62,290 nucleotides of DNA. Origin: Verrucomicrobiota bacterium (GTDB lineage Bacteria; Verrucomicrobiota; Verrucomicrobiia; Limisphaerales; J093). The DNA lies in the NCBI GenBank assembly GCA_012517065.1, contig JAAYVR010000264.1, positions 1 to 62,290 of the forward strand. The letters run 5' to 3'. A program made the translations under genes and the position numbers. Positions 17,480-32,141 of the stretch are shown in pieces (position 1 is the first letter of the stretch; each line of letters starts with the position of its first letter). Below the pieces are notes generated by a model. It ran no database searches, was not told the origin of the DNA, and worked only from the letters and a program-made list of their open reading frames with translations.

Positions 17480-18300
17480 CAGCCCGAGGCGGCGCAGGAG
17501 CCGGGGCGTTGCCCGTCAGGCGACTTTGGTTCCGGACACGCCCGGCTGGATTGTTCTATTTTGAAGAATCATTCATATTCGCGCTGGTTTTCACGCTACG
17601 AGTTTGCTCAGTTTCTCTATATCTGCTTCTCTGGCAGCCAGTAATGCGGTCACAACAATGGTACGGCCTTTGGGAGTGAGCCATATAAAGTGACAGGCTC
17701 GGAGTTTGGGTTTTGCCCCCTGATTCCGGCATGGTCCGCAGATTGCCCCATCTTCCAATCGGCGGTTGCCGAAGTCTGTGGATAAAGCCCTCGGGCGCCG
17801 ATATGGGGACAGACACATTGTTTTCGGCGTCATGCCGATCTGGTTCCAGGCACGGTGTTTGCGCATCGGTGTCATCCGCGCCATCCGCGGTCAAGAAGCT
17901 CAAACGAGCACAAGATCGAGTCGATCGACCACGGGTGTCACGGATGCCACGGATATCCAAGGCCTGTTATTGTACTGATCCCATCGAGTGTAACTGTGTG
18001 TCTGTTTTCTGAGTTTTGGCGGGGAATGCGATATGGGGACAGACACGTTGTTTGCGCATAGAAACAAAGCGGCAGCAAGCTGTCGCACTCCAAGCGCTTC
18101 GCGCCTACCAACGCCCACAGCATCGGCGGCAGCGCGTTAGAAACAATTGGGATCAGCGCGTTCTTCCTTGGGACCGAGTCGAAGGGGACATTTCGCAGCC
18201 CGGCGTGGCTGAAGGTCCGGGGGGTGCAAGAACCGGGGGGCGTTGCCCGTCAGGCGACTTTGGTTCTGGCTGCGCCGGGCTGCGAAATATGCGGGCTAAA
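17480..18300. repeat. Composite dispersed-repeat array, copy 2
   Basis: The modules are in the same order as in the 4.7-5.7 kb array: a GCGTTGCCCGTCAGGCGAC block (17508), the peptide-tail block (17555-17790), ATATGGGGACAGACAC (17801), the TGGTTCCAGGCAC variant (17838), another GGGGACAGACACGTTG (18029), a hairpin GCGGCAGCAAGCTGTCGC (18069-18086), and the TTTCGCAGCCCGGCGTGG block that ends GAAATATGCGGGCTAA. The last bases coincide with the stop codon of the kinase gene on the other strand. Confidence 0.85.
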
Positions 18301-19156
18301 CATACAAGGCAGACTCAAGGTCGCGCACAACCACGCTCATGTATGGATAGCGTTTGTCGGGCTCGGTCTCGATGCACTTGAGAACAATGCGTTCAAGCGC
18401 CGCGGGAATTGCCGCATTGAGTTCAGTCGGATTGCGGAATCCACTCCCACGATCCAACTGCCGCGCGAGAACTTCAGCCGCTGTTTCGCCCGGGAATGGT
18501 TTTTGGAAGGTGAGGAACTCATACGCTGTAACGCCGAAGGCGAAAATGTCGGCGCGGTGATCGACCGGTTGGCGCTGTAGTTGTTCTGGCGACATGTAAG
18601 CGGGCGTGCCGGGGTTGCCCGATAACTTGCGCGCAGATTCGGGCCGTGGCATGGCAAGATCGAAATCGATGAGGCGAACATTTGCATTTCGGCTGACCAT
18701 GACGTTTTCCGGCTTGAAATCCATGTGCATGTAACCGCTTTCGTGCACGTGTTCCAAGCCGATGGCCATGTCAATCAGAATATTGCCTGCGAACTCGGTG
18801 AGGATTGGATCGTTTTGCGCCATTAACAACTTCAGGTTGGCGCCCTCGACGTACTCGGTGGCGAGGTAATGGCATCCTTCGATTTTCCCGTGACCGATGT
18901 ATCCGATAATAAACTCGTGCTTTTCGATGTGCGCCAGAATCTCGCAGCCGCGTATGAACCGCCGCCTCGCCTTGAAATCGAGCCGATGATCAGTGCGGAG
19001 GCACCGGATTGCACAATGGTTTTGGGCAGAATCGGTTGCAAGCCAAATGTCAGCCATGCCACCGCTGTTTATCAGTTCATGCAAATAGTACGGTCCAAAC
19101 GGGCCCGGTTTGCGATGCCCACTTTCGTCAGTCCACTTTTTGCCGAATCCGAACAT
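18296..19156 (-). CDS. Divergent Ser/Thr protein kinase domain protein (possible pseudokinase)
   Basis: A 286-residue, single-domain Hanks-type kinase. The start at ATG 19156 is inferred because upstream codons look non-coding. The glycine loop is weak (NSGGMADIW, 30-38). The usual VAIK lysine is replaced: the site reads CAIRCL with R51. The catalytic loop is HMDFKPENV (144-152) in place of HRDLKPEN, keeping the aspartate and asparagine. The metal motif DFG reads DFD (164-166). APE is SPE in AYMSPEQ. No transmembrane or sensor domain is present. The stop codon lies within the end of a repeat module, so the C-terminus may have been trimmed by repeat insertion. The neighbouring hybrid histidine kinase is on the same strand. 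Confidence 0.82.
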   Translation of the reverse strand: MFGFGKKWTDESGHRKPGPFGPYYLHELINSGGMADIWLATDSAQNHCAIRCLRTDHRLDFKARRRFIRGCEILAHIEKHEFIIGYIGHGKIEGCHYLATEYVEGANLKLLMAQNDPILTEFAGNILIDMAIGLEHVHESGYMHMDFKPENVMVSRNANVRLIDFDLAMPRPESARKLSGNPGTPAYMSPEQLQRQPVDHRADIFAFGVTAYEFLTFQKPFPGETAAEVLARQLDRGSGFRNPTELNAAIPAALERIVLKCIETEPDKRYPYMSVVVRDLESALYV

Positions 19157-22698: not shown

Positions 22699-23044
22699 AG
22701 GCTGTTGGAACTGGTGACCTGGGCTCGAGGGACCGTTGAAAGCGAGAGTATCGAATGACCGTACGATCGGCGATGCTTCTGCGATGCTACCCAAGCAGCA
22801 GGACAAAAAATGACGATAACAACGCGGCGCACGAGACTCATTCCGACGCCCCGCTCTCCCCCTGCCTCCAGCAGTCGCATTCACAATTGCCTGCTCCATG
22901 TCCGCACTGCCAGTCTATGAACCATTCCGGTCACAGACACGATAGTATCCTACACTCCAATCATCTACTGTCCAGAATCTTCTGTACGGCATAACTTGGA
23001 GTGCGGGGGTGCTTCTCACGCAGCGGATCGGGATTCTGAGATTG

Positions 23045-23640
23045 TTTAGCCCGCTTATTTCCCAGCCTGGCGCAGCCGGAGCCAAAGTCGCCCGACGGGC
23101 AACGCCTCCGGCTCTTGCACCCCCCGGACCTTCAGCCACGCCGGGCTGCAAATATCCCCTGCGAGTCCGTCCCAAGGAAGAGCGCGCTGATCCCAATGGT
23201 TTCTCCCCCGCTGCCGCGGATGCAGTAGGCGTTGGCAGGCGCGAAGCGCTTGGAGTGCGGCAGCTTGCCGCCGCTTTGTTTCTATGCGCAAACAACGTGC
23301 CTGGAACCAGATCGGCATGGCGCCGCAAACAACGTGTCTGTCCCCATATCTGCATCCGAGGGGGTCCTTCGCACACTTCGGCAACCGCCGATTGGAACAA
23401 GGGACAATCTGCGGGCCACGCCGCAATCCGGGGGCAAAACCCAAACTGCGAGCCTGTCCCTCTATTTGGGTCCACAACCAGACAACGAGCCTGTCACCCT
23501 ATTCCGACTCACCCCCAAATGCCGTGCCGTTGTGACCGCCTTACCTGCGGCCAGAGAAGCAGATACGGAAAAACTGACCAAACGCGCAGCCTGAAAATCT
23601 CCGCGAATATGAAGGACTTTTCAATATATTATACCCTAAC
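23045..23640. repeat. Composite dispersed-repeat array, copy 3 (inverted)
   Basis: The most compact copy, about 600 bp, is in reverse orientation. On the plus strand it runs from TTAGCCCGCTTATTTCCCAG, through the CCCGACGGGCAACGCCTCC block, the hairpin GCGGCAGCTTGCCGCCGC (23257-23274), AACAACGTGCCTGGAACC (23293) and AACAACGTGTCTGTCCCC (23329), to the peptide-tail block, where the plus-strand frame ends EADTEKLTKRAA and stops at 23594. A family-d hairpin follows directly. No gene lies between 22700 and 23823. Confidence 0.85.
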
Positions 23641-23802: not shown

Positions 23803-23822
23803 TACTATACAAATGTATAGTA
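23803..23822. promoter_or_regulatory. Perfect palindrome, probable LexA operator
   Basis: TACTATACAAATGTATAGTA is an 8-4-8 perfect inverted repeat ending one base before the lexA ATG at 23824. A LexA dimer binding here would block the promoter or the transcription start of lexA and the polymerase gene behind it. The position takes the place of a ribosome-binding site, so the mRNA may be leaderless. Binding is inferred from position and symmetry. Confidence 0.75.
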
Positions 23823-23823
23823 T

Positions 23824-24534
23824 ATGAACCGGCTCACAGACAGACAAAAGCAGGTGTTCGAATTCGTGCGAAACACAATACTCCGCACAGGCGTCGCTCC
23901 TACACTCCGCGAAATCGCAGCTCAATTCCGGTTCCGGAGCGTCAAGGCAGCCGCAGACCACGTCGCTGCGCTCCGGCGCAAGGGGCTTTTGACATGGACG
24001 CCACGCCAGGCACGTGCTTTGCAGTTGATGGCTTATTTGCCAATCCTGGGCGGCTCACAAACAGAAAAAACAGACAATGCTTCAAATGCATTGCCTGCAA
24101 TTCGGCATGCAGTTGCGCAGCTCCCAATTTACGGGTCGATCCCGGCCGGTTTTGCACAGGAACATGCTCAGGAAAACAAGGGACATGTGGCAATCGATCT
24201 TGGCCTCTTGGGCATTCGCCCAACTGCCCGCACGTTTGTCCTCGAAGTGCGGGGCGATTCAATGATCGGACGTCACATCGTCGATGGCGATCTTGTGGTG
24301 CTCGAGCATGGACGCACACCGCGAAATGGCGATGTGGTGGCGGCCCTGATCGACAACGAAAGCACGCTCAAAACTTTCGTCCAAGAACGCGGTCGGCAGC
24401 CATATCTCAAAGCTGAAAACCCAAAGTACCCCAAGCTTTACCCGGCCAATGAACTGGTCATCCAAGGGGTAATGGTAGGGCTGATTCGGCGCATGAAACC
24501 GACGGCGGGCAATCCAGCCCCGCGAGGCACATGA
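23824..24534 (+). CDS. lexA: LexA-family SOS repressor
   Basis: A self-cleaving transcription repressor of the SOS response, 236 residues. It begins MNRLTDRQKQVFEFVRN, the canonical LexA start, which fixes the ATG at 23824 even though no ribosome-binding site precedes it. The winged-helix DNA-binding part contains APTLREIAAQFRF and a recognition-helix region VKAAADHVAALRRKG. The cleavage bond is probably A108-G109 in SIPAGFAQE. The serine-lysine dyad is S146 in RGDSMIG and K183 in STLKTF. The linker (75-100) is longer than in E. coli LexA. It lies 30 bp upstream of the fused polymerase gene with no separate promoter obvious, so LexA would repress both itself and that polymerase. Known relatives include LexA2 of imuB-dnaE2 cassettes. 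Confidence 0.94.
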   Translation: MNRLTDRQKQVFEFVRNTILRTGVAPTLREIAAQFRFRSVKAAADHVAALRRKGLLTWTPRQARALQLMAYLPILGGSQTEKTDNASNALPAIRHAVAQLPIYGSIPAGFAQEHAQENKGHVAIDLGLLGIRPTARTFVLEVRGDSMIGRHIVDGDLVVLEHGRTPRNGDVVAALIDNESTLKTFVQERGRQPYLKAENPKYPKLYPANELVIQGVMVGLIRRMKPTAGNPAPRGT

Positions 24535-24564: not shown

Positions 24565-27500
24565 ATGGATGAAGCATTGACCAAATTCACCCGGCCGGTC
24601 GTGCATCTTGACGCGGATGCATTTTTCGCCGCGGTCGAGCAGGCTGCAGACGCGCGCTTGCGAGGCCGGCCCGTTGTAGTGGGGGGCGAACGACGTGGTG
24701 TGGTGGTCAGCGCTTCCTACGAAGCTCGGCGGTTTGGCATCCACCCGCCAATGCCGACCGCACGCGCACGCAAGCTCTGTCCGAAGTTGATTGTGTTGCC
24801 GGGCGATTTCGAAAAGTACGAGCAGTTCTCACAATGGATGTTCAGTTATGCCTACGATTTCACGCCCGATGTCGAGATTTGCTCTTTGGATGAGGGATAC
24901 GTTGATTTGAGAGGCGTGCGCCGCCCGCCAATCGAGGTTGCCGCAACCATCCGCGATGCCATTCGCAAGGCACTGAAAATCAGCGTCAGCGAAGGCATCG
25001 GCAACAACAAGCTAGTCAGCCAGATTGCTTCCAAGCTCCGCAAACCGGCTGCCTTCGAGTGCGTTTTGCCGGGCCGCGAAACCGAGTTTTTACATCCCCT
25101 GCCCAATCGCTGGCTGCCGGGTGTTGGTCCGCGCACTGCCGAGCGCCTCAACACTGCCGGGCTTGTGCTCATTCGGCATATTGCAGCGGTGCCGACCGCA
25201 TGGCTTGCGCTGCTGGTTGGGCATACGGCGCCACAGTTGAAACAGTTCGCAAATGGCGTGGACGATCGGCCGGTCGTGCCAGCCAGTGTCCCCGCTGAAA
25301 GTTATTCCAAACAACATTCTTTTGACCAAGACCAGACCGACGAGCCATACGTGGCCGCCGTCCTGCGGCAAATGGCTGACACGCTCTTCGCACAAGCGCG
25401 AGCCGATGGCAAAAGCATCCGCACCATGACAGTTCGCGTGCGATACAATGACCGCGCAGAAGACCATGCCACCGAAAGCCTCCCTGAACCAACCGACCTT
25501 GAAACCGACGTGTACAATCGCCTCGACCTGCTCCTTCGCCGCGCATGGCGCAGACGCGTCAGCCTGCGTGCGGTTTCCCTGAAACTTTCCAACCTGTACC
25601 AAAGCTTCCACGTCGGCGTTCTCCAGTTCGACCGCGCCGACCAAAAACGCGGTGCGCAACGCCGATTGGCCGATGTTGTGGATCGTCTGCGGGCGGAACA
25701 CGGACACGCCGTGCTGCTCCGGGGACATGATTTCATTCTCAAAACCGGCGAGCCGAACGCAAATCTGCCGGAGAGCCACGGAAGAAATCCCCGGCGCAAC
25801 GGAACCGAAAAATTGCCGCTGCCGCTGCCTCTGGTGGTGCGCAGCCATTATTCTTTCCTGAACTCGACGCTGTCGCCAGAAGCAATTGTCGCGTGGGCGC
25901 GCAGGCGGGGCTTGTCAGCCGTTGCAATATGTGATTACGGAAACCTCCATGGCGCAGTCGAGTTTTCATTCGCAGCCCGGGCTGCCGGGCTGAAACCGGT
26001 GCTGGGCGTGGAAATGGTTGTGGACGGGCATCCGCTTTGGCTCTATGTCGAGAACGCCTCCGGCTACGCAAATCTGTGCCGCATGATTTCCGCTCATACA
26101 CCGGATGCAAAACCGCAGTGCGCCACACGACAACGCCTCGCCGAATGCGGGACACAGGGTTTAATTGGCGTATCGCGCGACCCGACACTGGCGGCGCTTT
26201 TCCCGGGACGGTTTTATCGTGCGCTGACGTGCGATGCGGATTTTCGCGATTACGCTGCGCACAAGGGCTGCCTGCCTGCAGTGCCGGTTGCGCCCGTGCA
26301 TTATGAGAAACCCGACGACAGGCTGAAATTCAACATACTGCAGAGCATCCGCACCCTCACTTTGCTTCAGCAGCCGCACCCCGAAAAACTGATGTCCGGC
26401 AATCACCATTTCGATTTGCCAGCCGGATTTGCCGAGGCCATCGAGCACCAGCCGGAACTGGTCAAACACACCTGGGAAATTGCAGAGCGATGCAATTTTG
26501 CCCTGGCACCTGGCAAACCGCAGTTCCCGGACTTTACTCCGCCCGATGGTTCGGCACCGGGGGCTTTCCTGCGCACCCTTGTTTTGCAGGGCCTGAAACA
26601 ACGATATGGAGAACGGGGCGCAATGACGCGCGAAGGCAGCATGGTTCCCCCGGCCAAACTCCGCCAACAGGCCGAAGAAGAACTAGCCATGATCCACACC
26701 GTCGGTTACGAGGAATACTTTCTTGTGGTTTGGGACCTTTTGCAGACATGCCGCGCCCGCGGCATCCAGTGGATCACCCGCGGAAGCGCCGCCGATTCGC
26801 TCGTTTGTTATTGTTTGGGCATAAGCAACGTCTGCCCGATCCGATTCGATCTGTATTTCCGCAGATTTCTCAATCCGGACCGCATGGCGCTTAACAAACT
26901 GCCGGACATCGACATCGACTTTCCGCACGACCGAAAGGACGATGTGTTGGACATTTTGTTCGCCAAGTACGGCCGGGAACGGTGCGCAGTGGTGGGCGGG
27001 TTCTCGACGTTCCATGCCCGGAGCGCATTTGCCGAGGTTGCCAAGGTGCTGGGTGTGGCAGAACGCGATGTGCGCCGGTTTACCGAGCGTTTTCCATGGA
27101 GCTTCAGCAGCTTTGGTGATTCACCAACCAATTCCCACATTCAAAATTGGGCCGGGACCATCGAGCATACAACCAGCGTACGCCTGAAAGAATTGTTGCG
27201 AACCAACCCAGAATGCGCGGATTTGCCGATCGACGAGGAACCTTACAGCACCGCGCTTGAAATTGCCGAGTTTTTGGAAGGTATCCCCCGCTACCCCAAA
27301 ATGCATCCCTGCGGCGTTGTGCTCTCCCGCCAGCCCATGCACGAATTAACCCCAACCTTTGTCTCGCAAAAGGGTTATCCCACCACGCACTTCGACATGG
27401 ACGCAGTGGAAGCGATCGGCCTGGTGAAACTGGATATTTTGGCCCAGGGCGGTCTGGCTGTGATGCGCGATGTGACGTCGGCCCTGCAAACACGAGGGGT

Positions 27501-29211
27501 CCAGATAGATATCGAAACGTTCACCGTCACCAACGCTTCTGCAAATGCCACGAACGCAAACCCGGACGCAAACCACACCGCCGCGCCAACTGCATCGGAA
27601 CAGCAGTTCAATGACCCTGCAGTGTGGGACGTGATTTCACGTGGAAACGCGCGCGCTGTCCACCACATCGAATCCCCGGCAATGATATCACTCTGCCGAA
27701 TGTGCAACGTGCGCGACATCGACACTCTGATCGCCGTGGTGAGCGTCATACGGCCGGGCGCAGCAAACGAAGACAAAAAACGCGAGTTCGCGCGCCGTTG
27801 CCAGGGACTGGCCGCGCCGGTCTATGCGCACCCTTCAATCGAACCGTGCCTGCGCAGCACGTTCGGACTCGTCGTGTACGAAGAGCATATTCTGCAAATC
27901 TGTGAAGCGTTCGCGGGCCTGTCCGCCGGGCGAGCTGACGTGCTCCGACGCGCACTGGTCAAAAACAAAATGGACGTCGTGGCGGAATTTGCAGATGAGT
28001 TCGCCGCCAGCGCTCGGCAGTTGGGAAGGACCGAGTCAGAAATACAGCAGGTGTGGGAACTTTTGATCGGATTCCACGGCTACGCGTTTTGCAAAGCACA
28101 CAGCACTGCCTATGGCGTCGAGGCATACCAGAGCGCGTGGCTCAAACGGTATTTCCCCGCAGAATACATGGCGGCCGTGTTGACAAACGGAAAAGGGTTT
28201 TATCAGCCCCTTGTTTACGTGCTGGAATGTTGGAGGCTTGGCATACCGCTCTTGCCGCCGCGCGTGAACGAGCCTGGACCGGCTTTCACAGTGGTCGATA
28301 TCGACCACGGTCTTGTGAAAGAACCGCCCAGGAACGGCGAGTCATCGCCCCGTCATCCAAACCCAACAGCCGGTTCGCCTCAGCCGCGGAAACGCGCAAT
28401 TCGCGTGCCGGTAACCCGCGTTCGTGCATTAACCCAATCAACTCAGGAGCGGCTGCTAGCAGAACGCGCCCACGCACCGTTCCGGTCGATTGCTGATTTC
28501 TACCTTCGCGTCAGACCCGACCCGGCAGAAATGGAAGCGCTGATCCGCGTTGGCGCGTTCGATGGCTTTGGCGTCGGTCGATGTGAACAGTTCTGGGAAT
28601 ATCAACGGCTCAAGGCTCGCTGGGGCGAGGGAAACAGCATCGGCCAGGGCTGGTTGATCCCCCCGGACGGCACCTGCCCAGCCACAGGTAACCCAGCCAA
28701 CAGCCCGGACAATCCCGATGCCGGCCAAAAGGCGTTCCAGGCAAGCGCACCCTTGCACCTGCAAGAGCCCACGCGCATCCAACAGCTCAGATGGGAAGTC
28801 GAGTTGCTCGGGTTCCCTGCAAGCGGCCACCCGCTCGATTTGTACCCGGACGTCGCGTGGAACACATACTGCCCAATATCGCGAACAGGCGAGTTCGTCG
28901 GCCAGGAAGTCACATTGTGCGGATTGGTGATCGAAGACCGGGTCCATCAACAAACAACCGGTGAACCGATGAAGTTCCTCACCCTGGCAGACCGAACTGG
29001 AATCCTCGAAACAGAGCTGTTCGCATCCACGTACAAAACCTATGGATTGGCAACCGTTCGGTACCCCGTGCTTGAAGTAAGCGGGCGCGTCGAAACATTC
29101 GAGAACGGGCGCGGCTTTACCTTGCGCGTCCTGCGCGCAGGTCCACCGCGTCTGCGCAGTAAACGACACACAAAATCCGATGGAACATTTCAACCATCGC
29201 TTCGCTGTTGA
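24565..29211 (+). CDS. Fused Y-family (DinB-like) and C-family (DnaE-like) DNA polymerase
   Basis: One uninterrupted 1548-residue frame joins two polymerases. Residues 1-390 are a Y-family translesion polymerase with the catalytic set kept: D16 in HLDADAFFA, and D109 and E110 in CSLDEGYVDL. Helix-hairpin-helix LPGVGPRTAERL and a little-finger region follow. Residues about 418-1540 are a DnaE-type alpha subunit. The PHP start VVRSHYSFLNSTLSPE has lost most metal ligands (CDYGNLHG replaces TDHGNLYG). The palm motif is PDIDIDF (780-786), preceded by TRGSAADSLVCYCLGI, with KLDILAQGGLAVM downstream. An OB-fold lies near 1440-1535. Low-complexity inserts fall at about 990-1015, 1252-1276 and 1369-1390. 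It follows lexA by 30 bp. Known mutasomes use separate ImuB and DnaE2, so this single chain may be a self-contained SOS mutasome. Confidence 0.93.
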   Translation: MDEALTKFTRPVVHLDADAFFAAVEQAADARLRGRPVVVGGERRGVVVSASYEARRFGIHPPMPTARARKLCPKLIVLPGDFEKYEQFSQWMFSYAYDFTPDVEICSLDEGYVDLRGVRRPPIEVAATIRDAIRKALKISVSEGIGNNKLVSQIASKLRKPAAFECVLPGRETEFLHPLPNRWLPGVGPRTAERLNTAGLVLIRHIAAVPTAWLALLVGHTAPQLKQFANGVDDRPVVPASVPAESYSKQHSFDQDQTDEPYVAAVLRQMADTLFAQARADGKSIRTMTVRVRYNDRAEDHATESLPEPTDLETDVYNRLDLLLRRAWRRRVSLRAVSLKLSNLYQSFHVGVLQFDRADQKRGAQRRLADVVDRLRAEHGHAVLLRGHDFILKTGEPNANLPESHGRNPRRNGTEKLPLPLPLVVRSHYSFLNSTLSPEAIVAWARRRGLSAVAICDYGNLHGAVEFSFAARAAGLKPVLGVEMVVDGHPLWLYVENASGYANLCRMISAHTPDAKPQCATRQRLAECGTQGLIGVSRDPTLAALFPGRFYRALTCDADFRDYAAHKGCLPAVPVAPVHYEKPDDRLKFNILQSIRTLTLLQQPHPEKLMSGNHHFDLPAGFAEAIEHQPELVKHTWEIAERCNFALAPGKPQFPDFTPPDGSAPGAFLRTLVLQGLKQRYGERGAMTREGSMVPPAKLRQQAEEELAMIHTVGYEEYFLVVWDLLQTCRARGIQWITRGSAADSLVCYCLGISNVCPIRFDLYFRRFLNPDRMALNKLPDIDIDFPHDRKDDVLDILFAKYGRERCAVVGGFSTFHARSAFAEVAKVLGVAERDVRRFTERFPWSFSSFGDSPTNSHIQNWAGTIEHTTSVRLKELLRTNPECADLPIDEEPYSTALEIAEFLEGIPRYPKMHPCGVVLSRQPMHELTPTFVSQKGYPTTHFDMDAVEAIGLVKLDILAQGGLAVMRDVTSALQTRGVQIDIETFTVTNASANATNANPDANHTAAPTASEQQFNDPAVWDVISRGNARAVHHIESPAMISLCRMCNVRDIDTLIAVVSVIRPGAANEDKKREFARRCQGLAAPVYAHPSIEPCLRSTFGLVVYEEHILQICEAFAGLSAGRADVLRRALVKNKMDVVAEFADEFAASARQLGRTESEIQQVWELLIGFHGYAFCKAHSTAYGVEAYQSAWLKRYFPAEYMAAVLTNGKGFYQPLVYVLECWRLGIPLLPPRVNEPGPAFTVVDIDHGLVKEPPRNGESSPRHPNPTAGSPQPRKRAIRVPVTRVRALTQSTQERLLAERAHAPFRSIADFYLRVRPDPAEMEALIRVGAFDGFGVGRCEQFWEYQRLKARWGEGNSIGQGWLIPPDGTCPATGNPANSPDNPDAGQKAFQASAPLHLQEPTRIQQLRWEVELLGFPASGHPLDLYPDVAWNTYCPISRTGEFVGQEVTLCGLVIEDRVHQQTTGEPMKFLTLADRTGILETELFASTYKTYGLATVRYPVLEVSGRVETFENGRGFTLRVLRAGPPRLRSKRHTKSDGTFQPSLRC

Positions 29212-29508: not shown

Positions 29509-29648
29509 GGCAGGCAGTCACTTGACGCATGAACAATTTTTCTGCCCCGCGTTTTTCCACCTCCGGAGATTTCAAATCAGCTTTATCGCTTGACGCGCCG
29601 TCATTCAGGGTCTAGTCTCATTTCGACATTTGGCGAAACAACAATGTG

Positions 29649-30011
29649 ATGCGCGAGTTCATGGCCATAACAAAAGCGCTGTCCGACCCCAACCGGGTAC
29701 GGATGCTACTTGCGCTGCGCGGACGCGAGTTGTGCGTCTGCCAAATCACCGAATTGTTTGGCTTGGCTCCTTCAACGGTGTCAAAGCACCTGTCCGTCCT
29801 GCACAACGCAGGGCTTGTTCGGTCCAGAAAGAACGAGCGATGGGTGTACTACAGGTTGCCGGGTCAAGGTGCACCGGTGATGGCGCGTGAAGCGCTTAAT
29901 TGGGTGTGCAAGTCCCTGGGCGGAAGTGAAGAGGCCACTGCAGACCAAAAGCGATTGAAACAGATATTGAAGATGGACTTGTCTGAAATCTGTCGTCGGC
30001 AATGCCAATAA
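29649..30011 (+). CDS. arsR: ArsR/SmtB-family metalloregulatory repressor
   Basis: A 120-residue winged-helix repressor that senses arsenite (or a related soft metal) and controls the genes that follow. The motif ELCVC (28-32, C29 and C31) at the start of the recognition region is the classic As(III)-binding site of ArsR proteins. GLAPSTVSKHLSVLHNAGLVRSRK is the DNA-binding helix and wing, and WVYYRL the beta-hairpin. The ATG at 29649 is preferred over an adjacent GTG at 29646. A further cysteine pair near the C-terminus (C(K/R)-type WVCKSL and EICRRQC) might add ligands. arsM begins 114 bp downstream. Confidence 0.93.
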   Translation: MREFMAITKALSDPNRVRMLLALRGRELCVCQITELFGLAPSTVSKHLSVLHNAGLVRSRKNERWVYYRLPGQGAPVMAREALNWVCKSLGGSEEATADQKRLKQILKMDLSEICRRQCQ

Positions 30012-30124
30012 GTCGAGTGGTGCAGGTGGTACGGGATGCCACGCATTTCCGCTTTATCAGGGAACAGCCGGGTCATGATCTCCAGATCAAGACGGATAAA
30101 CAGAACGTTGGACAATGCTGTACT

Positions 30125-30994
30125 ATGAATGACGCAAAGAAACAGATCATACGCGATCAGGTCCGCAAAGGTTACGCCCAAATTGCCACAACTGCATCCT
30201 CCTGCTGCGGAACCACTGGTTCATCTTGTTGCGGGTCCGTTGCTCCGGACAATCTCGCGCAACAAATCGGCTATTCCACCGAGGACCTCGCCAGCCTCCC
30301 GGACGGCGCCAACATGGGATTGTCGTGCGGCAACCCGAATGCCCTTGCAGCCCTGCAGGCGGGAGAGGTCGTGCTCGATCTCGGCAGCGGCGGTGGGTTT
30401 GACGTTTTCATCGCCGGGCGCAAGGTCGGCCCCACAGGCCGCGTTATTGGGGTGGACATGACGCCCGAGATGATCTCGAAAGCGCGGCGAAATGCGGAAT
30501 TGTACCGCCAGCGAACCGGCCTCGACAACGTCGAGTTCAGGCTCGGCGAAATCGAACATCTGCCTGTTGCGGACGCCACTGTTGACGTTGTGATCTCGAA
30601 TTGTGTCATCAACCTTTCGCCGGACAAACCGCAGGTCTGGCGCGAGATTGCCCGCGTGCTGAAACCGGGAGGTCGTGTGGCGGTGAGCGATCTGGCACTC
30701 CTGCAACCACTGCCACCCGCAATCGTCGAAAGCGTCGCGGCAATGGTCGGGTGCATTGCTGGCGCAGCGCTGGTGAGCGAAACCGAGCGAATGGCGCGTG
30801 AAGCGGGTCTGGTTGACATCGTGCTCACTCGCCGATCGGACTATGTGGAGAAGATGGCCGATTGGCAGGACCCGTTGTACAAGCAGATCGCGTCGCATCT
30901 TCCGCCCGGAACGAAGCCCGGCGATTTCATCACGAGCCTCGAGATTGCCGCGCGCAAGCCCGCTCCAAGCCGTTGTTGTTCAAGAACCACCTGA
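30125..30994 (+). CDS. arsM: Arsenite methyltransferase
   Basis: A SAM-dependent enzyme that methylates As(III) to mono-, di- and trimethylarsenicals. The 289-residue protein starts at ATG 30125; the open frame to 30002 overlaps arsR and is not conserved-looking. The SAM site is VLDLGSGGGFDVFIA (83-97). The three cysteines that bind arsenic in characterised ArsM proteins are at comparable places: C68 in GLSCGN, C160 in ISNCVINL and C210 in MVGCIAGA. N-terminal CC pairs (27-28, 35-36) are typical extras. It lies between arsR and acr3 and is surely part of the same detoxification unit. Confidence 0.95.
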   Translation: MNDAKKQIIRDQVRKGYAQIATTASSCCGTTGSSCCGSVAPDNLAQQIGYSTEDLASLPDGANMGLSCGNPNALAALQAGEVVLDLGSGGGFDVFIAGRKVGPTGRVIGVDMTPEMISKARRNAELYRQRTGLDNVEFRLGEIEHLPVADATVDVVISNCVINLSPDKPQVWREIARVLKPGGRVAVSDLALLQPLPPAIVESVAAMVGCIAGAALVSETERMAREAGLVDIVLTRRSDYVEKMADWQDPLYKQIASHLPPGTKPGDFITSLEIAARKPAPSRCCSRTT

Positions 30995-31034
30995 CATCAT
31001 CACGAATCACGTATCACTCATCACAAACTCATCC

Positions 31035-32141
31035 ATGAACAAACCCATCACCTCAACTCCAACTGTCGCGCCCAAGCGCTTGAACTTTTTCGAGCGCTAC
31101 CTGTCGCTCTGGGTCTTGATCTGCATGGTCGTGGGGGTGGCGCTGGGCAAACTGCTGCCGGGAACCGTCGCTGCCTTGAGCAGCCTCGAGTTCGGCAAGG
31201 GTTCTCAGGTCAACATTCCAATTGCGGTGCTCATTTGGCTGATGATCTACCCGATGATGCTGAAGATCGACTTTGGCTCATTGGTTGGCGTCACCAAACG
31301 CCCGAAGGGATTGCTCGTGACACTGTTTGTCAACTGGCTGGTCAAGCCGTTCAGCATGGCGTTTTTTGCGTGGGTATTCCTGCACAACGTGTTTGCCGCA
31401 TGGATCGATCCGGAAACAGCCCGCAATTACACCGCAGGTCTGATCATCCTTGCTGCTGCCCCCTGCACGGCAATGGTGTTTGTCTGGAGTTATCTCACCG
31501 ACGGTGACCCGGCCTACACACTGGTTCAAGTGGCTCTCAACGATCTGATCATGCTTTTCGCTTTTGCACCCATCGTGATGTTTCTGTGCGGCGTGGCCAA
31601 CGTGGTCGTGCCCAGCAAAGTGCTCATCACCTCGGTCGTAGTGTTCATCGTGATCCCGCTCGTGGCGGGTTATCTGACCCGCTCCAGCCTCCTGAAAGCG
31701 CGGGGCGCGGAGTGGTTCGAGAAGACCTTCCTGCCGAAGTTCCATCCTGTCACCGTGGTGGCGCTGCTGGCCACCCTCGTGTTGATCTTCGCCTTCCAAG
31801 CAGAGAATCTGACCACGAAATGGTTCGCGGTCATTCTGTTGGCCGTGCCGATTCTGGTGCAGGTTTATTTCAATTCGAGCCTGGCCTACGGCTTGATGTG
31901 CCTGTTCAAGGTGCCGCACAACGTGGCCTCGCCCGGCGCGCTCATTGGCGCGAGCAACTTCTTCGAGCTGGCGGTTGCTGTGGCAATAACGCTGTTTGGT
32001 CCGGGGTCGCCTGCGGCACTGGCATGCGTAGTGGGCGTGCTCGTTGAAGTGCCAGTCATGCTCTCAGTCTGCAAGGTCTGCAACGCCACTCGCAGCCGGT
32101 ATCAGGCAAGACTGCTGGCCAAACCGTCTTTGGGTTCGTAG
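31035..32141 (+). CDS. acr3: ACR3-family arsenite efflux transporter
   Basis: A ten-helix inner-membrane carrier that exports As(III) using the membrane potential. The 368-residue protein starts MNKPITSTPTVAPKRLNFFERYLSLWV at ATG 31035. The hallmark AAAPCTAMVFVWSYLTDGD contains the essential cysteine (C144). PMMLKIDFGSL and SLAYGLMCLFKVPHNVASPGALIGASNFFELAVA are also typical. It follows arsM by 40 bp. The last 200 bp of this gene are duplicated 760 bp downstream (32711-32928), a scar of a recombination that placed a defence segment between acr3 and arsC. Confidence 0.95.
   Translation: MNKPITSTPTVAPKRLNFFERYLSLWVLICMVVGVALGKLLPGTVAALSSLEFGKGSQVNIPIAVLIWLMIYPMMLKIDFGSLVGVTKRPKGLLVTLFVNWLVKPFSMAFFAWVFLHNVFAAWIDPETARNYTAGLIILAAAPCTAMVFVWSYLTDGDPAYTLVQVALNDLIMLFAFAPIVMFLCGVANVVVPSKVLITSVVVFIVIPLVAGYLTRSSLLKARGAEWFEKTFLPKFHPVTVVALLATLVLIFAFQAENLTTKWFAVILLAVPILVQVYFNSSLAYGLMCLFKVPHNVASPGALIGASNFFELAVAVAITLFGPGSPAALACVVGVLVEVPVMLSVCKVCNATRSRYQARLLAKPSLGS

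Follow-up and report, generated by a model that had tools for sequence, protein, structure and literature searches.

In the portions of the literature covered here, the systems closest to the locus described below combine a Y-family DNA polymerase (PolY) with DnaE2, with RecA, or with both. The Y-family member of the ImuA-ImuB-DnaE2 system (ImuABC) is catalytically dead (Timinskas 2013), PolY and DnaE2 are separate genes in Cellulophaga (Timinskas 2019, PMC6511836), and DnaE2B modules, for example in Bacteroidetes, include an active PolY and RecA as separate proteins (Timinskas 2026, PMC12926913). According to Timinskas 2019 (PMC6511836), many Y-family proteins carry a C-terminal "RecA-NT" motif, and RecA binding through this motif has been predicted for UmuC and PolY proteins.

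The window, that is, the whole stretch of 62,290 nucleotides analyzed here, encodes a PolY and a DnaE2-like polymerase in a single chain. Like the DnaE2B-PolY-RecA module, the fusion appears to unite an active-type PolY carrying a RecA-NT motif with DnaE2, in a genome in which neither ImuA nor ImuB is apparent, but the module consists of separate genes, whereas the fusion is one chain with a linker predicted to be disordered and is found in Verrucomicrobiota. With ImuABC it shares a LexA-linked operon that brings together a Y-family protein and DnaE2; unlike in ImuABC, the catalytic residues of the Y-family part are retained, the polymerases are fused, and ImuA was not found. The resemblance to Pol V (UmuD'2C-RecA) lies in a Y-family polymerase with a RecA-NT-like motif adjoining an S24 gene, although here DnaE2 is fused on, and the genome encodes a full LexA and no UmuD above the cut-off. 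Finally, the first 349 residues agree with Pol IV (DinB) in domain content and active site, but the fusion additionally has the RecA-NT-like motif and DnaE2, a poor clamp motif, and scores below the NCBIfam cut-offs for Pol IV.

A preliminary description of this DNA, made from the sequence alone, knew of no enzyme with this architecture, and no published PolY-DnaE2 fusion was found in the portions of the literature covered. Specifically, there is no mention of one in the covered portions of PMC12926913 or in those of Timinskas 2013, Aravind 2013, the Bacteroidetes LexA paper, and a 2012 review. The parts and their composition were already known, and the novelty lies in their covalent joining and in the clade concerned. 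The claim of novelty thus stands for the covalent linkage and falls for the pairing of two apparently active polymerases, which are known as separate genes in Bacteroidetes from the covered portions of Timinskas 2019 and 2026. The interpretation as a whole was partly supported; lexA next to the fusion, the degenerate PHP domain, the RecA-NT-like motif, and the fission forms had no place in it.

Architecture of the locus

The fusion gene starts with ATG and encodes 1548 aa with no internal stop, and all six Pfam domains of the product exceed their cut-offs, confirming the earlier reading of one open frame with DinB-like followed by DnaE-like domains. Along the chain, IMS and IMS_C are followed by a motif resembling the RecA N-terminus, a linker predicted to be disordered, PHP, palm, fingers, HhH, and an OB-like end; the stretch between IMS_C and PHP is free of Pfam domains. 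The features of the locus are as follows.

23803..23822, no strand: perfect palindrome TACTATAC-N4-GTATAGTA, a proposed operator, ending one base before the lexA start
23824..24534, + strand: lexA, 236 aa, with LexA_DNA_bind and Peptidase_S24 (Pfam; TIGR00498, 155.1 bits, cut-off 110.95)
24565..29211, + strand: PolY-DnaE2 fusion, whole gene including the stop (ORF list, Pfam, alignment)
24607..25035, + strand: IMS, Y-family palm/fingers, aa 15-157, with D16, D109, and E110 (Pfam, 147.6 bits, cut-off 23.2)
25297..25596, + strand: IMS_C, Y-family little finger, aa 245-344 (Pfam)
25618..25632, + strand: degenerate clamp-motif-like place, aa 352-356, VLQFD (family alignment)
25660..25740, + strand: RecA-NT-like motif, aa 366-392 (profile against the genome's own RecA; helices in the model)
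25747..25815, + strand: linker, aa 395-417, predicted disordered and variable among relatives (pLDDT <50, alignment, dN/dS)
25834..26184, + strand: PHP domain, aa 424-540, with degenerate metal-binding residues (Pfam, alignment)
26566..27444, + strand: DNA_pol3_alpha, C-family palm, aa 668-960, with D781, D783, and D957 (Pfam, 225.2 bits, cut-off 23.9)
27592..28020, + strand: DNA_pol3_finger, C-family fingers, aa 1010-1152 (Pfam)
28240..28584, + strand: HHH_6, helix-hairpin-helix region, aa 1226-1340 (Pfam)
28906..29142, + strand: C-terminal β-rich, OB-like region, aa ~1448-1526, followed by the protein end (secondary structure of the model; named OB by analogy with DnaE)

The source genome (5.26 Mb in 298 contigs, 95.4% complete) encodes, beyond the fusion, one stand-alone Y-family polymerase (C147), which by eye keeps the D and D-E motifs, and one DnaE (C47), bringing the totals to two PolY and two DnaE. 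In this genome, a query with one Pseudomonas ImuA was answered by RecA only. These results agree with the earlier distinction of the fusion from ImuA-ImuB-DnaE2, and membership in ImuABC was rejected given the intact catalytic residues of the Y-family part and the lack of a detectable ImuA.

Elsewhere in the window, ORFs 3' of the fusion (29646-32138) encode an ArsR-family HTH protein, a methyltransferase, and an SBF-family (bile acid/ACR3-like) transporter according to Pfam, presumably forming together an arsenic-type cluster. Diverged inverted copies lie about 5 kb apart at 17505-18302 and 23043-23628, with arms of 35-189 nt that are 74-94% complementary; the second copy directly precedes lexA.

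From the architecture, residues, neighborhood, and selection pattern, we infer that the fusion is probably a translesion synthesis machine under LexA control, in which the predicted DnaE2B-PolY-RecA mutasome takes the form of a single chain. DNA damage would lead to RecA filaments and to LexA self-cleavage, and the operon would be derepressed; the Y-family part would bind RecA, or the filament tip, via the RecA-NT motif, and the enzyme would be recruited or switched on. One or both polymerase sites would then copy past the lesion without PHP-type proofreading, possibly with a hand-off between the sites inside one molecule, and the fusion would hold two polymerases, which are separate genes in relatives, at a 1:1 ratio and recruit them jointly. 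By analogy, separate-gene modules of the same composition, such as dinB-dnaE of Adhaeribacter and those in the covered portions of PMC12926913, favor the one-chain mutasome. Against it speak the apparently degenerate clamp motif, the short match to RecA-NT, the lexA regions that lack the palindrome, the search for further copies of it, which made no wider LexA regulon evident, and the scores below the NCBIfam cut-offs, as well as the close relatives with separate genes, for the function of which the fusion is not needed. A more specific version, in which the Y-family site inserts and the tethered DnaE2 extends, the enzyme is switched by RecA through the intervening motif, and its own lexA makes the whole a self-repressing mutagenesis cassette, is conceivable but somewhat doubtful as a complete scheme, the insert-then-extend mechanism as such being plausible. 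The fusion provides a ready-made single-protein system for asking whether a paired Y-family polymerase and DnaE2 both synthesize, and in which order, and allows the knock-out of each active site within one chain at fixed stoichiometry.

The two polymerase halves

Alignment of the window protein with 60 fusions from related loci revealed D16 and E110 in all 61 sequences and D109 in 60, so that the DinB-like catalytic residues, located where the preliminary description had placed them, are intact in 60 of the 61 proteins. The single exception across the catalytic residues of both halves, DDE in PolY and DDD in DnaE, is the D109E replacement in L059. F20 is invariant (61/61), and the next position is occupied by F in 59 proteins and by Y in two; we take F20-F21 to be the place of the steric gate. 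The best score against the NCBIfam Pol IV models was 249.3 bits, with a cut-off of 389, and the model approached most closely relative to its own cut-off was PRK02406 (240.1 vs. 256). The best PDB match by sequence was 7yll, and Foldseek searches with the first AlphaFold2 model (32 sequences; mean confidence 79.7, pTM 0.41) likewise retrieved Y-family polymerases as the best PDB matches (9a5e_A, E 6.2e-33; 7yll, 7.7e-28).

It appears unlikely that the Y-family half is merely an ImuB-like scaffold that recruits RecA and the clamp, leaving synthesis to the DnaE2 half alone. Such a role would be in line with the dead Y-family member of ImuA-ImuB-DnaE2 (the covered portion of Timinskas 2013), with D109E in one fused protein, and with the low confidence of the model at the catalytic loop (aa 89-109), but is hard to square with the conservation of D16, E110, F20, D109, and an aromatic F or Y at position 21. 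Furthermore, the Pseudomonas ImuB compared lacks the first acidic motif, and PolY is the more constrained half, with a lower dN than DnaE in all 10 close pairs compared.

In the C-family half, the motif PDIDIDF is present at residues 780-786, as described previously, and the third C-family Asp, which had not been named, is D957 in VKLDIL; D781, D783, and D957 are found in 61/61 proteins. Thus, judging from the alignments, both polymerase active-site signatures of the fusion are apparently intact. In the PHP site, V and R replace the two His of L-H-V-H in the DnaE1 of the same genome, and Y takes the place of H after the conserved Asp; a degenerate PHP domain is usual in DnaE2, with few exceptions, according to the covered portions of Timinskas 2026 (PMC12926913). 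In a quick DnaE tree of 52 rows, including 37 of the 61 fusions and few references, with long branches flagged, the clade fell on the DnaE2 side (SH-aLRT 99-100), separated with support of 100 from the genome's own DnaE1 and from the DnaE of Limosilactobacillus and Sinorhizobium. The nearest outgroups were G004, a member of the same phylum, followed by the plasmid DnaEs of Desulfosarcina and Adhaeribacter (99). In Adhaeribacter there is a 4-base overlap between this gene and a separate dinB, and the Desulfosarcina gene comes after lexA, a DUF72 gene, and a gene for a hypothetical protein. The fusion passed the DnaE superfamily model TIGR00594 (524.5 bits, cut-off 434.35) and fell short of the error-prone model PRK05672 of NCBIfam (462.2 vs. 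939); with this score below the error-prone cut-off, the DnaE half is DnaE2-like by tree placement and PHP site. Identity with the replicative DnaE was rejected, given the separate DnaE on C47 and the placement of the fusion elsewhere in the tree. The model of the DnaE part (pTM 0.83) had Pol III alpha structures as its best Foldseek matches in the PDB (4iqj_D, 4.4e-59; 7pu7_A, 1.3e-58).

Substitution patterns indicate that both halves are under purifying selection. In eight of the 10 close pairs, dN/dS was 0.03-0.07 for PolY and 0.07-0.14 for DnaE, compared with 0.17-0.5 for the linker in the seven of these eight pairs in which it was computable; the near-identical pair L006/L017 yielded 0.21, 0.17, and 0.11 for PolY, DnaE, and linker, respectively, and dN/dS was saturated in L016/L018. 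The low values in both halves argue that both are in use, which need not mean that both are catalytic. PolY and DnaE distances were strongly correlated (Mantel r 0.942 over 66 taxa, with 0/999 permutations as high), a correlation that is also expected from common descent alone.

The junction and the adjacent lexA gene

At the clamp place, where QxxLF is usual, the commonest letters in the family are E-L-P-L-E, and the window protein has VLQFD; the unfused PolY of the outgroup G004 has QLDLF. A profile of the 61 proteins run over the RecA of the source genome peaked at RecA residues 27-53, a score that was reached by 2/1000 shuffled RecAs, the motif match being short. D373, H388, and L392 are present in 61/61 proteins and R386, G387, and D389 in 59-60, which suggests that residues 366-392 resemble the N-terminal oligomerization segment of RecA. 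AlphaFold2 places helices at 357-379 and 387-393, and with pLDDT below 50 at 395-417, these residues are predicted to be a disordered, flexible linker.

A disordered and fast-changing linker, together with the natural fission forms and the in-frame GTG/TTG codons at positions 383, 417, 424, and 425 of the window fusion, could be taken to indicate that two proteins arise from the gene, through a protease site in the linker or an internal start, and that it acts as a two-gene operon. We consider this rather improbable: residues 380 to 439 include no ATG in frame, no clear ribosome site is seen by eye before the GTG/TTG codons, the linker looks unconserved in the alignment, and the in-frame fusion is retained in the deep branches of the clade. 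A continuous chain, as in the one-chain mutasome proposed above, is better compatible with these features.

The lexA gene is separated from the fusion gene by 30 bases, and its product is the sole S24 protein above the Pfam cut-off in the source genome. The palindrome TACTATAC-N4-GTATAGTA has no exact copy elsewhere in the genome, and allowing up to three mismatches yielded two other places (with two and three mismatches), no more than in the reversed control, so this search made no LexA regulon evident beyond the lexA-fusion operon. Among relatives, 56 lexA regions were compared, taking fused, split, and cut loci together and leaving out the duplicate L101, the HTH-less genes, and short upstream pieces. 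A palindrome of the form ACTnnnY-N4-RnnnAGT occurs at -60..+20 of lexA in 33 of these regions, with 0.003 expected per interval of this kind from whole loci, and is absent in this definition from the other 23. Its inner letters vary by lineage (GTTC in seven, GTCC in five, ATAC in four, ATCC in four, and others); with the outer ACT....AGT kept, this variation might represent a natural series of LexA specificity changes. The position of the fusion behind lexA and the palindrome suggest that it is under LexA repression and damage-induced.

TGTTC-N4-GAACA is reportedly the LexA box of Verrucomicrobium. Allowing up to two mismatches, the window contains 42 matches to it (shuffles: mean 29, largest 40); as the window operator this box was rejected, as there is no match before lexA, where a different palindrome stands.

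Of 64 loci with a PolY-bearing frame, 59 have an S24 gene, either lexA or an HTH-less LexA-like gene, upstream on the same strand, and 53 have it within 150 bp of the frame; three of the five loci without it have less than 1 kb of contig upstream. Fifteen of the 59 genes scored as UmuD-like, and in seven loci of Prosthecobacter/Brevifollis type (L034, L035, L037, L043, L044, L065, and L080), the S24 protein lacks the HTH and retains the AG cleavage site as well as the dyad residues Ser and Lys. These genes are compatible with a Pol V-like machine in which the S24 protein, LexA or an HTH-less derivative, serves as a working subunit in the role of UmuD. For the window this has a low probability, its upstream gene encoding a complete LexA that is alone among the S24 proteins of the genome in exceeding the cut-off; a UmuD partner above the cut-off is lacking in this genome, and UmuD-like genes are seen in some relatives only. 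A one-chain mutasome with LexA as its repressor fits the window better. As a separate observation, an HTH-less S24 gene in the place of lexA may mean that LexA gave rise independently to a UmuD-like protein at this locus, and TGTTC-N4-GAACA is present in 12 of 16 upstream regions of the Prosthecobacter-type HTH-less S24 relatives.

Spread among relatives and history of the fusion

A scan of genome contigs, covering 84,980 species with one genome each and detecting close relatives only, identified 85 relatives, of which 80 were kept. Verrucomicrobiota groups are named in the titles of 76 of these loci, and the remainder are titled Klebsiella (L021) or "bacterium" (L048, L056, and L069); L021, a 1438-aa open frame with the fusion from a Klebsiella pneumoniae MAG, is probably a mislabeled record. 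A single ORF of more than 1250 aa spans the Y-family half and DnaE in 60 of the 80 loci, from 56 other assemblies, and seven more loci have the junction in one frame and are broken or cut elsewhere (L022, L024, L036, L056, L064, L073, and L084). The genes are split in four loci (L032, L039, L063, and L071), and the Y-family half is off the contig in nine. The single-frame fusion is the commonest form found, counting loci that include close kin and up to three per assembly and are not independent events. A stop or frameshift near residues 390-420, named earlier as the point at which the fusion might fail, is absent from the window as assembled, and the junction is in a single frame in 67 of the 71 loci that could be judged on both sides, with length and sequence differing between relatives. 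Given these 60 full-length single-frame loci, among them a locus from a genome listed as a single contig (G363) and another from Brevifollis gellanilyticus, a cultured isolate (L034), an assembly or frameshift artefact joining adjacent dinB and dnaE genes, for which the only argument is that the window's genome is a draft in 298 contigs, was rejected as having practically no probability.

Of 86 genomes sampled from the window's order, its own among them, 46 gave matches of E 1e-100 or better, and by hand count 30 had both halves in one open frame, four of them flagged with a stop inside the match (G294, G310, G318, and G330); the others comprise two split cases (G300 and G329), two with the Y-family half alone (G339 and G312), and 12 fragments. 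Among the matches listed for a phylum-wide sample of 288 genomes (that of the window plus others from outside its order), there was at least one more fusion, G187, and the halves of G004, which show 45% and 44% identity across the matched parts, are separate ORFs on different contigs (L085/L086). In IMG/VR, a scan with two short patterns matched 85 stretches, none of them a relative by tblastn. All matches in plasmid and phage records were below 60% identity, and neither the eight plasmid regions inspected nor the feature names in the rows listed, which cover 30 of 2037 and 8 of 1264 records and are in part unannotated, made a fusion evident.

Split members are nested within the fused clade in both trees. 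G329 groups with L074 (support 91 in the PolY tree and 100 in the DnaE tree), G373, G375, and G374 group with the window (88 and 85), and G339 groups with L042 in the PolY tree only (99). The polymerase genes lie at different places in the close relatives G373 (= G300), G375, G374, and G329, and the Y-family gene remains behind lexA in G373, G375, G374, and G339. Similarly, the PolY gene and dnaE are on different contigs in L032+L089, L063+L090, L039+L091, and L102+L103, with the Y-family gene still behind lexA in the first three. Supported branches force at least three changes of state in the PolY tree and at least two in the DnaE tree; as few changes were needed with 43-44 of 500 shuffled labelings for PolY and 74-86 of 500 for DnaE, indicating that the split state is scattered rather than confined to one clade. 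In the PolY tree, in which ImuB-like rows are too diverged to place, the stand-alone PolY rows G018 and G312 also nest within the fused clade, on long branches. Because the outgroup has separate genes and the deep branches are fused, the simplest history that these trees suggest is a single fusion with several later fissions, although re-fusion may have occurred in the lineage of the window, given that its nearest relatives G373, G375, and G374 are split. The coexistence of fused genes in many members and split genes in some provides independent support for the physical partnership previously inferred from separate genes.

The synteny comparison took in the window, two fused relatives, one locus with a split PolY, and five with a split dnaE; in the best 60 pairs, the sisters L032 and L063 had flanking genes in common. 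A gene for an M24 metallopeptidase lies upstream of the split dnaE in L032 (2903-4168) and upstream of lexA in the fused L038 (4390-5151), possibly a trace of the ancestral place. In the MAG H5_VER1 (G376 C11, ~54.8-56.0 kb; L094, L099; L071), the Y-family gene behind lexA is fragmented into several frames, through either decay or sequencing errors, and the split DnaE2, located elsewhere, has a long open frame. The related Y-family polymerase at G271 C1:1601349-1602521 lies within a 772-aa open frame and may be joined to another part. Several assemblies contain two or three fusion loci (L043+L052+L077, L059+L065, L029+L068, L073+L081, and G361 C31+C41).
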